A stretch of 64,000 nt of DNA from positions 57,165,168-57,229,167 of the forward strand of contig OY997647.1 in assembly GCA_963921795.1 (NCBI GenBank), in the 5' to 3' direction. Below are positions 34,878-52,800 of the stretch, one piece after another. The DNA comes from Nannobrachium achirus. Lineage: Eukaryota; Chordata; Actinopteri; Myctophiformes; Myctophidae. The notes beneath the pieces are model-generated. The model saw only the letters and a list, made by a program, of their open reading frames with translations. It searched no databases and had not been told where the DNA came from. The stretch's first letter is position 1, and each line of letters opens with the position of its first letter. Made by a program: the position numbers and the translations under genes.

Positions 34878-37800
34878 CTGAAACCACCAGAGGAGAGTTA
34901 GTTCTACTGTTTGGCCATTGAAGAGCTAGAGGGCTAATGGAGTCAACAGTCACTGTCTTCCTATTAGGACATGTTTTTATTTTGTATTTTTGAAAAGGAT
35001 GTTTTATTTTATTTTAGTGTAGGAAGTGTTCTTTTTTTTTAATATATTCTCATGACCCATAAAAACAAGTCTGCAAACCAAAATGGGAAAAGAACCCTTG
35101 AAATGTGGATTTTCTTAAAATGTATTTTGCCTCTAATGAAGGTCAAAAAAGGCGAATGGGGTCAAGTAGAGTTGCAGTGTAAAGGGTCCAAAGTGCTCCT
35201 CAGTGCCGTCATACAATATATATTGTTTATAGTTTAAGTTACTGTTTATTTTGTGACCAGAGAGAAGGAAAGACGGTGTGTATGTGTGCGTGTGTGCGTG
35301 TGTGTGTGTGTGTGTGTGTGTGTGTGTGTGTGTGTGTGTGTGTATGTATGTGTGTGTGTGTGTGTGTGTGTGTGCGTGCTAGAGAGAGTGAACACGCTCC
35401 CAGGGGACAGAACTGTGGACCAGGCAGTGAAAGCGGGTTAACATCACTAGGAGGACAAACACAGGCTATTACGTAATGCGTCCAGAAAAGAAGAGGATGA
35501 AGAAAAAGAGAAGAGTGGGGGCAGGGTGAAAAGAGGGAGAGATAGTGATGTTGTTAAAAAGAGTGAGACCCGAGCCTATGCATGTTAATGGCATTTATAT
35601 AAAAAAGGCTCGGTGGAGAAGCAGCGACTTAATGTTTGAGGCAACAGGGAGACACCCTGTGTGTTTCAGCAAGCTAGAACCAGAGGACGTTCTGTCTTGA
35701 CTCAATATTAATGATATGACACTGTGACATGACAATACTGTAGATAGAGATACAATGTATAGTCATATTTTAACACCTTTAATTCTAAACTATATTTTCT
35801 CCAACAGCCTCCCTAACAAAGGGTCTGTGCCATAATGTGGTACTAAATTCTATTGAACAATGAACTGTGGTCTTAAGGGCTTTGCAGACAGGTGTGATGT
35901 TTCGCACGGAAACAACAGACAATTCCATTTTCTTTTTAAAGAAACCAATGATATGATATGACCTCATGCACTCCTGCTCCGAATTTGACGTGCGGCAATT
36001 GGCTGCGGCAGTGCGTTTTTTTCCCGATCGAACCCAGTTCGATTCGTGCGTCATTTCGCATGAGGTAAAAACTCATTGACTCCTTTTATGACTCCTTTTC
36101 GGATCCGCAGTGTGGACACCAAATCCAATGCTTTTTAATCATGCAGCAAACGGAAAAAAAGGCAACGGCCCTGTGTGCAAAGTCCTTTAGTCTAGGAATC
36201 TGGCATAGGTTGGGCTGTTGTTGAAGGTTAACATGATGAGCTAGGGTGAACGGTAACTTAAAGGGGAAGAACACCCATTTTCAATATTGAAGTATGTCAT
36301 TAATATACCTTAGAGGAGTTGTGTGGAAATAAATAATAAGTTCCCCCTCTTCTGTGTTGCCTGGAACTGGAGGATTGATTTTGGGGTTTGTATTGTAAAG
36401 TACAACCGTGTGATGTCATCAAGTTGTACTTTGCAATACAAACCCCAAAATCTATCCTCCAGTTCTAGGCAACACAGAAGAGGGGGAACTTCTTTTTTTA
36501 TTTCCAAACAACTCCTCTAAGGTATATTAATGACATAGTTCTATATTGAAAATGGGTGGTCTTCCCCTTTAAGGGACTCTTCTCTATGATAAGTGAAGAT
36601 GGGTGTGACAGAGATTAGCGTATTATATCAGTAGGATAGAGGGCGGTGTGGGGGCCCAGGGCAGTTGGTGACGTCACAGTAGGGGCGCGTGCATGTGTGT
36701 GCATGTGCGTGTGTGCGTGCGTGTGTGCGTGCGTGCGTGTGTGTGTGTGTGTGTGTGTGTGTGTGTGGGTGTGTGTGTGTGTGTGTGTGTGTGTGTGTGT
36801 GTGTGTGTGTGTGTGTGTGTGTGTGTGTGTGTGTGTGTGTGTGTGTGTGTGTGTGTGTGTGTGTTTCAAAAGTGAATAAAGGGCCCATGTTGGGGGTGTA
36901 TTGTTTGGTGTTCATTCTTAAAGACAGTGTGGGGTTTTATTGTTTTTCTAAAGGCTGGCTTTACCGTGACTGTAATTAGGGAATGGACAGGATGAGGTTC
37001 CCTTTGTGGGATGCGAGAAGAGATTATTTTTGAGTTGTGAAGGGGATACTGTACACTAGTTCCAATGCAGCTAGAACAACAGGAGACTGAAGTGTATTGA
37101 ATAGATCTTTCTATCAGTGAGGGCCGTGACCACAGGCAAAAGGGCAGTGAATCTTATACATTTAAAACAAAGATAGGCTCAGGATGGGGGTGGATGGTGA
37201 GCTGGAGGGTGAGGGCGGTTTACAGATCAGCATGGGGGATTCTGTTCCCTGTAGGATGGGGAGATGACATGGTTTTTGGATTAATAGCATTGTGACTCCC
37301 CTGTCATAAAGGTTTGTGTACACATTGGTGAATGAAGGGTCACCGTGTTGGGGGGAGATTGTGGCTCTTATGTATGACTTTAGTCTCATTTTGTATTAAG
37401 ACTTCGTGGGGGGACAGTGGGTATGGCTGGATGGACATGCTGCAACATGTTTGATGTTGTCAACAAGGAGAGAGGATGGATCACATTACCTAACTATGTT
37501 CCTGTACCCAGCATGGGTTAGGCTAACTATACAGTAGGTCCAAGCCAGTAGAAGAATGGTCACACATCAGGGGGTGGTGTAAAACAATGATAGGCCTACT
37601 GTTAAGCTCAGTGACCACAACACAGGGTGTGTAGAAACAGGGCATGCACTTTTTAGTGGACAATGCACTATGTATTTTTCCAGTATGCACACGTGGATAT
37701 ATTATAGACAGCTATTACCTAGCCAAATGTAAGAAATTCCATACATGAAAATAAAAGAATAAATAAGTAATGAAAAACAGCCGATCTACCTGCTCACAGA

Positions 37801-49800: not shown

Positions 49801-52800
49801 GTTGATCTGTCAGCGCCTACCCCCCTGTCACATCTTACTCTCTCTCTCTCCATGTCGCCTCGTTCTGTGAGCAGGTAGATCGGCTGTTTTTCATTACTTA
49901 TTTATTCTTTTATTTTCATGTATGGAATTTCTTACATTTGGCTAGGTAATAGCTGTCTATAATATATCCACGTGTGCATACTGGAAAAATACATAGTGCA
50001 TTGTCCACTAAAAAGTGCATGCCCTGTTTCTACACACCCTGTGTTGTGGTCACTGAGCTTAACAGTAGGCCTATCATTGTTTTACACCACCCCCTGATGT
50101 GTGACCATTCTTCTACTGGCTTGGACCTACTGTATAGTTAGCCTAACCCATGCTGGGTACAGGAACATAGTTAGGTAATGTGATCCATCCTCTCTCCTTG
50201 TTGACAACATCAAACATGTTGCAGCATGTCCATCCAGCCATACCCACTGTCCCCCCACGAAGTCTTAATACAAAATGAGACTAAAGTCATACATAAGAGC
50301 CACAATCTCCCCCCAACACGGTGACCCTTCATTCACCAATGTGTACACAAACCTTTATGACAGGGGAGTCACAATGCTATTAATCCAAAAACCATGTCAT
50401 CTCCCCATCCTACAGGGAACAGAATCCCCCATGCTGATCTGTAAACCGCCCTCACCCTCCAGCTCACCATCCACCCCCATCCTGAGCCTATCTTTGTTTT
50501 AAATGTATAAGATTCACTGCCCTTTTGCCTGTGGTCACGGCCCTCACTGATAGAAAGATCTATTCAATACACTTCAGTCTCCTGTTGTTCTAGCTGCATT
50601 GGAACTAGTGTACAGTATCCCCTTCACAACTCAAAAATAATCTCTTCTCGCATCCCACAAAGGGAACCTCATCCTGTCCATTCCCTAATTACAGTCACGG
50701 TAAAGCCAGCCTTTAGAAAAACAATAAAACCCCACACTGTCTTTAAGAATGAACACCAAACAATACACCCCCAACATGGGCCCTTTATTCACTTTTGAAA
50801 CACACACACACACACACACACACACACACACACACACACACACACACACACACACACACACACACACACACACACACACACACACACACACACACACACA
50901 CACACCCACACACACACACACACACACACACACACACACGCACGCACGCACACACGCACGCACACACGCACGCACATGCACACACATGCACGCGCCCCTA
51001 CTGTGACGTCACCAACTGCCCTGGGCCCCCACACCGCCCTCTATCCTACTTATATCAGTGCGGAGGATTACACCAGGATGGACAGACAGATGGGCGGACA
51101 GACGGATGGAAAGAGTGACCGTACTAAAGCCTTTTTCCAAAGTCCTGAGTCAGCTAAGAAGGATGACGCATGACTCCGCCCACCTGGCCCTTCACAACCA
51201 ATCACCTTGGTACGGCCTACCGTATCTACCGCTACCTACAACATCAATGTCACCTCACCCACTACCAATAGGACAAAGGCAAAGGCAATGCGATTGCGCA
51301 GAGTTAAACATCTATAAACACTTGTGTTTAGACAATATGCAGTTAAACACTTAATCCGGATAAAGAATGTTTTTTGTTTTGTCTGTGCCAATGTTCACCT
51401 ATAATGACATGACCAAAATAGGGACACCAGGGTTAGAGTGGTAGGCGAGGGTCCGATTTGGAGTGGGATGGGTTCTGTAAAGCGGTATATATTTGACAAT
51501 TTTGTTCTACTCATACATTTCTAAATGTCTAATCTATGAATAAATAGCTGTGGTCAGACAGTCTAACATTTCTGTTACACTTTACATTACAGTGAATATT
51601 TGGAAGAATCTGAACCCCATGGGTACAGTGGTAAACGGAAATATTATCCCCCTATTACCTGAAAGAACCTCATATGATAACTTGACTGGAGGAGCCATTT
51701 CTCTCTGACATTTAACGAAAATGTTTTAGCGTTACATATTTCAGTGCCTTTATGACAGCTTGAGGTTCTATTTATTGCTTTTACCGATAGAAGTTTAAGG
51801 AGGATTATGATTCAGACACTGGTGTACTGCTATGAGGAGCACTCAGATGCATAAAAAGTGCCTCGCAACATTAATTAGTACATAGTAGTAAAGACACTGT
51901 AATGTAAAGCGTAAACCCTAAAATCCTTACCTCGTGCACTTAGTGGTATCAACTCATTGAACTGCAATAACATGCAAAAGCAAACATATCCTCTATTTTA
52001 GTCATGCTAGGCAAACAAGTCTCACAGTTGCTGCTAGTACTGTAGCTACTTCTTATTTATTTTTTAATTTTGTCGAAAGCGCTCGCTGATGGCAATTTTC
52101 AAAACCTTATTTTAAATGAATCATCTTGAGCTAAAATCAACTGGATAGCACTAGTCGCAACGGTGATAGCGTTAGGACTACCTACTGTACATCGGATAAG
52201 TGCATTCTGAACCTGTGCGAGCATGCACATCCACATGTACAGTACATGCAGTGCATGTACGTGCCCTACAGCATTATGTTCTTGTGTCAATGCAAGCATG
52301 CCTACATGCGTGTGTGTCTATTCTATGCACAGTCCAGTAAACACACATACACTATGACTGTGTGTGTGTTAGGGATGGGACGATAAGCGATATTATCGTT
52401 TATCGTGATAAAAAACACTCACGATAATCGTATCGAGGAGGTTTCATTCATTATCGCGATATCGTCCTCCGTCATGCACTGGGATCAATTCACCTTTTAT
52501 TTGCAGAGCTGCATATCTGATACCATTTAAAAACCCTCTATTGGTAAAAGGTACTTATAATATACGTACTTGATACAGTGAGTAATTTTTCTCACTCCCT
52601 GTAAAATGTCTTAGCCAAAAAATAGCCGATCTACAAGCTCACAACGCGTTGCAACGCAACACGTTGTGAGCTTGTAGATCGGCTATTTTTTGGCGAATCA
52701 TGTTCCGACCCAGGATAATGAATTTTGATCATCGCGATAATATCGTAAATCGCGATTTCTTTTGTCACAACAATCGTGATATGAAATGTTCATATCGTCC

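Follow-up and report, generated by a model that had tools for sequence, protein, structure and literature searches.

Long-armed elements with Polinton ends and CARD cargo in the genome of Nannobrachium achirus are probable Polinton satellites

The window analysed here, a stretch of 64,000 nucleotides (C10:57165168-57229167) from the 1.66-Gb genome of Nannobrachium achirus, contains an element of 14,421 bp (36630-51050) that starts with AGTAGG and finishes with CCTACT. The sequence TATATC, read at both borders (36624-36629 and 51051-51056), flanks it as a 6-bp target-site duplication (TSD). These borders had been proposed in an initial annotation made from the window alone, and they are exact to the base. 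The long inverted arms described there, said to take up 58% of the element, were likewise confirmed by arm-to-arm alignment: the left arm of about 4.16 kb (36630-40790, plus strand) and the right arm (46900-51050, minus strand) together account for about 58% of the element, and differ by 12 mismatches (0.3%) and 42 gap positions in 4,182 aligned columns. Arms this similar suggest a recent insertion.

The 6.1-kb centre between the arms (40791-46899) has five open reading frames (ORFs) of interest, of 104, 178, 269, 560 and 296 amino acids (aa), all on the minus strand. The three small ORFs are paralogues: p269 (42596-43405) has the motif C-x-GC-x3-DHPSQ-x-QH-x-CL, p178 (42036-42572) is its paralogue, and p104 (40891-41205) is related to its C-terminal part. 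The largest, card560 (43625-45307), encodes a four-CARD protein, with PF00619 matching over four stretches at 4e-14 (52.8 bits, against a cut-off of 23.9), whereas p296 (45732-46622) is possibly a PUR-like nucleic-acid-binding protein, as suggested by a low-confidence model. When six ORFs of the element were run against Pfam, the 560-aa ORF alone scored above a cut-off, which agrees with the earlier statement that no core genes are recognised. A genome-wide search with the family B polymerase model PF03175 gave no match in the window element. RVE integrase, packaging ATPase and protease were not found by Pfam on the six ORFs, no search having been aimed at each gene, and no capsid protein was recognised in the same six ORFs, where distant capsids could escape.

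The element is a member of a real multi-copy family, ordinary in its ends and unusual in its structure and cargo. Its first 201 bp has at least 44 matches in the genome (40 of 58 candidates scored), and a 19-base motif from the ends, allowing up to one mismatch, has 52 (27 forward and 25 reverse), as compared with 0 and 1 matches for the reversed motif. Most of these ends (46 of 52) form 23 facing pairs that lie 10.3-22.8 kb apart (median 14.9 kb), and six have no listed partner. No facing pair among the 23 is closer than 10.3 kb, in a scan that copies with the motif lost would escape. In 16 of the 17 copies whose ends were read, the window copy included, the 6-bp duplication is perfect; the exception is C10:37.48M, where the outermost right end is missing. 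Because these ends and the perfect duplication recur together in 16 of 17 copies, chance is excluded as an explanation of the window ends. Other borders or another TSD length, which the initial annotation had named as findings that would speak against it, did not occur in the copies read. For the C21 copy, an end motif is seen at C21:19535780, some 8.7 kb beyond its arm match, and may mark an insertion within an arm.

A full relative with the same ends had been suggested as a possible mobiliser, and polymerase-bearing copies of this kind do exist. PF03175 has matches at 25 loci genome-wide, and four of these have the ends in question: C12:5.33M and C4:63.19M, whose ends were read directly, and C7:4.51M and C3:13.03M, which were assigned by the end motif together with the polymerase gene. 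C12:5.33M is 16.5 kb long with its own 6-bp TSD and an ordinary terminal inverted repeat (TIR) of about 370 bp; its polymerase ORF scores 3.5e-42 on the part examined, and a match to the packaging ATPase model Pox_A32 (22.7 bits) falls just below the cut-off of 22.8. The outer 557 bp of the left arm in the window and the polymerase-side end of this Polinton (or Maverick) have 93% identity, a match that reaches beyond the TIR, while the opposite end matches the left arm over 368 bp only. Since the near-identical arms match the polymerase-side end past the TIR, both ends of the window element derive from that one Polinton end.

Gene and end matches within 16 kb of each other were joined into one locus, which gives 29 elements with these ends (23 pairs and six single ends). 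Eighteen of them carry the CARD gene and p296, 2 carry p296 alone, 4 carry polymerase and 5 gave ends only. The initial suggestion, a non-autonomous class or a carrier of accessory genes that a full relative moves, is supported by the copies: polymerase-bearing relatives exist and are outnumbered by polymerase-less copies, and mobilisation in trans would be its inferred part. With 78 of 315 candidates scored, the counts of CARD genes are minimum values. At least 37 loci have the CARD-p296 pair, namely the 18 elements with these ends and 19 further loci without them, and at least 23 other loci carry CARD without p296; upon comparison with the 25 polymerase loci, none of the pair loci or CARD-only loci has a polymerase within 16 kb. 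The CARD gene was found only away from polymerases, whereas a diverged p296 (39-46%) lies near 7 of the 25 polymerase loci, about 9.5-11 kb off and on the opposite strand (C1:62.0M, C8:31.9M, C10:3.48M, C14:45.66M, C16:21.13M, C17:30.0M and C18:4.69M). None of the seven has these ends. The p269 motif also occurs in an ORF at the left end of C12:5.33M, at 24-25% identity. As homologues of both proteins sit by polymerase loci, the genes for p296 and p269 appear to be accessory genes of Polintons which the satellites have retained. Inverted pairs of p296 or CARD without these ends were seen at C19:19.545M, C24:12.615M and C2:14.034M, possibly palindromic satellites with other ends. Another CARD repeat with near-identical scores, at C1:80.68M, C5:69.21M, C24:37.76M, C70 and C518, has stops in some frames and seems to have been amplified separately.

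The CARD frame appears to be under selection, to judge from how its copies have changed. In 8 copies of card560 (3 of them in part) there are 125 distinct changes and not one stop, where 5.5 would be expected at random placement (P 0.002), and the same 8 copies have no frameshift. Among the 18 elements with these ends in which the gene is present, 15 have the frame open along its entire length, and the ratio of nonsynonymous to synonymous change (pN/pS) is 0.50 for card560, 0.72 for p296, 0.51 for p269, 0.49 for p178 and 0.61 for p104. This bears on the simplest alternative, namely that we are looking at ordinary decayed Polintons that have suffered internal deletions, kept some accessory genes by chance and never led a satellite life. 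Decay is certainly common, as 96% of vertebrate Maverick loci are reported to be degraded (PMC8097293), and both the five elements that gave ends only and the three broken CARD genes would fit it. Chance retention is, however, hard to reconcile with a CARD gene short of stops beyond chance, with a CARD-p296 pair kept in 18 elements at 90-100% protein identity and mostly open, with the same pair at 19 more loci that lack these ends, and with facing pairs that never come closer than the 10.3 kb given above. We therefore regard plain decay as quite improbable.

Comparison of the two arms within each of eleven copies shows that the equality seen in the window is the rule. Over the first 4.3 kb the arms of one copy differ by 0-0.73% in 8 of the 11, while the closest arm in another copy is 0.8-5.3% away (in the ten copies with 1,500 bp alignable). 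The arms are 3.9-7.6 kb long in 10 of the 11 copies, the remaining one, C3:30.7M, having about 2 kb in pieces. Three copies depart from equality, C10:15.05M (5.0%), C3:30.7M (4.2% over 1,957 aligned bp) and C10:54.2M (1.6%), and the TSDs match in all three. The first two are chimeras in which each arm is closest to a different element, and in C10:15.05M the difference extends along the whole arm. The simplest reading of such divergent arms is an exchange between lineages before insertion, the alternative being conversion from another copy after insertion, above all for C10:54.2M.

Inverted repeats in chromosomes undergo conversion, and the arms could consequently have been equalised by the host after insertion, and not by replication of the element. 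Near-identical arms in 8 of 11 copies are what this would produce, and C10:54.2M resembles a conversion mosaic, with arms that differ in their outer part and are nearly identical further in. On the other hand, the host has not equalised the divergent arms of C10:15.05M and C3:30.7M since insertion, their duplications being intact and their arms closest to different elements, and in C10:15.05M the difference along the entire arm also speaks against host conversion. We consider it unlikely that gene conversion in the chromosome accounts for the equality of the arms, all the more since arm-to-arm conversion alone leaves the fold-back junctions described below unexplained.

Three copies are palindromic nearly to the middle, each with its own turning point at a microhomology of 4-5 bp. 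In C9:58.7M the arms have 1 mismatch in 5,729 aligned bp, and a loop of about 20 bp marks the turn, which lies at ACTAA within p178. In C2:11.6M the arms extend for 7.6 kb with 3 mismatches plus gap positions, and they turn around a loop of about 256 bp at a GTGG inside the CARD gene. The arms of the third, C4:63.19M, are 5.95 kb long with 6 mismatches plus gap positions and turn at CATTT around a loop of 423 bp; they follow the polymerase gene, where they are 99.9% identical to C12:5.33M over the stretch compared, and the copy consists of the Polinton's polymerase half in folded-back form. A further element, C3:69.36M, bears CARD as well as p296 on each strand, and its CARD is cut at residue 536 as in C2:11.6M. 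This shared cut suggests that the C2-type palindrome, once formed, was itself copied and moved. In C5:56.96M, p296 is likewise symmetrical on both strands.

Fold-back chimeric reads occur, and palindromes of this kind could in principle have been made during assembly, from such long reads or from collapsed haplotypes. For the window element this is disfavoured because its left and right 500-bp flanks share nothing (no similar stretch in common at E 1e-3). The flanks on the two sides share nothing in 4 of 5 copies, the fifth having only two same-strand matches of 16-20 bp, and an artefact would account neither for the duplications that match in all but one of the copies read nor for turn points that differ among the three palindromes. 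That the palindromes are assembly errors is thus barely credible.

We consider it probable that the window element is a non-autonomous Polinton satellite, replicated extrachromosomally through single-stranded, end-primed intermediates, and that fold-back copying both made its arms and keeps them equal. Dependence on a helper is suggested because the ends are shared with polymerase-bearing copies and the core genes are missing; the integrase, the polymerase together with the protein that primes it and perhaps also the capsid would come in trans from a full Polinton. Replication would take place off the chromosome on linear, end-primed molecules, with displacement of single strands. The growing 3' end of a displaced strand could then fold at a microhomology of 4-5 nt, prime on itself and copy out to its own end, giving a product that bears one Polinton end twice and would thus still be able to replicate and insert. 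Such fold-back copying would explain why there are palindromes with the same Polinton end at both termini, a short microhomology and a loop. A single event could have produced the ancestral 4-kb arms, and the arms may be equalised before each insertion by further rounds of copying or by one end serving to repair the other. The link between folding back and protein priming is drawn by analogy with adenovirus and with the snapback genomes of adeno-associated virus (AAV; PMC8235507).

Several observations weigh against this proposal. The core genes identified in C12:5.33M are the polymerase and the sub-cut-off Pox_A32 match, with integrase, capsid and protease not among them, and 21 of the 25 polymerase loci lack these ends, so the satellites could use another Polinton family. 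The centres of the two CARD palindromes are not identical, as the CARD copies are 20 bp apart in C3:69.36M and 124 bp apart in C2:11.6M. Both arms of C10:54.2M are closest to one and the same arm of C10:15.05M, which makes it no clear chimera; host conversion can make inverted arms alike or introduce a piece of another copy, and C10:54.2M fits either view. As regards the genes, CARD is broken in 3 of 18 elements and p104 in 2 of 7 copies, and the frame test is weak on its own for p296 (P 0.06), p269 (P 0.36) and p178 (P 0.66). A pN/pS near 0.5 is also modest compared with the 0.001-0.0001 given for Maverick core genes in PMC8097293.

We tentatively extend the proposal to the possibility that these elements are satellite viruses of a Polinton in vertebrates, with a selected immune-modulating cargo, copied by folding back and packaged in Polinton capsids. 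Packaging is suggested by the minimum distance of 10.3 kb between facing ends; if it does take place, the size of the capsid would explain this minimum as well as the upkeep of largely non-coding arms, which would serve as filler. The CARD protein probably disturbs CARD-CARD signalling in the host, in the inflammasome or in apoptosis. Satellites of this kind would offer immune-signalling genes a route for spreading.

The arms carry some further features. A GT-rich microsatellite tract lies within the left arm (36689-36864, plus strand), and the arms contain a 116-aa ORF that is open at the same length in 3 of 10 other arms. A tRNA-Trp gene is found in the left arm (40157-40228, plus strand, 62.3 bits) and again in the right arm (47462-47533, minus strand). 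It was called in 4 of 11 copies, and its sequence is identical in all six arms compared, which come from those 4 copies: none of its 72 columns is variable in the six arms, compared with 66 of 1,062 in the flanks. Some arms (L043, L045, L049) have a tRNA-Glu-like gene at a distance of about 2.4-2.8 kb from their end, whereas the arms of the window gave no such call at this place. Close to the left border, outside the element, is an independent fold-back repeat (36257-36573; about 320 bp, 91% identity), and a run of unknown bases at 55040-55390 of the window falls within an ORF call.

Among the papers listed by literature searches that covered neither subscription papers nor preprints, we found no report of palindromic or satellite Polintons. 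To our knowledge, the replication mode of Polintons has so far been deduced mainly from sequence. If the proposal is true, the palindromes are chromosomal evidence for replication as end-primed linear DNA with single-stranded intermediates, and fold-back junctions, together with arms equalised before insertion, would be a physical trace of this process that can be followed in any genome. Satellites are known from protists and bacteria, and a polymerase-less family of virus-like length with a constrained CARD gene (18 gene-carrying as against 4 polymerase-bearing elements among the 29) would be their vertebrate counterpart. Virophages encode their own capsid, whereas none was recognised in the window element. 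The replication of adenovirus is protein-primed, with displaced strands and one end repairing the other, and it gives rise to panhandles and to inverted-duplication defective genomes; these features resemble what we propose, although the adenovirus forms, unlike the elements described here, are not integrated. AAV snapback genomes are alike in being folded back, self-complementary and replicated with trans-acting help, but they are described in PMC8235507 as subgenomes in particles, while the forms described here are chromosomal, with TSDs, and one of them was seemingly copied on. Virophages and other satellite viruses are similar in that they rely on the machinery of another virus, and they are related to Polintons (PMC4028283); the same paper disputes an earlier proposal that Tlr elements are non-autonomous Polinton derivatives. 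With Polintons themselves our elements share the 6-bp TSD, the AGT.../...ACT ends common to the polymerase-bearing copy, the accessory genes and the size class, facing pairs here being 10.3-22.8 kb apart and intact vertebrate Mavericks measuring 12.7-24.6 kb, with 6-bp TSDs, according to PMC8097293, whose authors describe a size constrained near 17 kb and compare it with capsid stability in adenoviruses. They differ from Polintons in that satellites lack any core gene found, in that both ends come from one Polinton end, in a cargo of CARD and possibly PUR-like proteins, and in the 4.16-kb arms of the window element, which exceed the TIR range of 46-1,447 bp (mean 402) reported for intact vertebrate Mavericks (PMC8097293).

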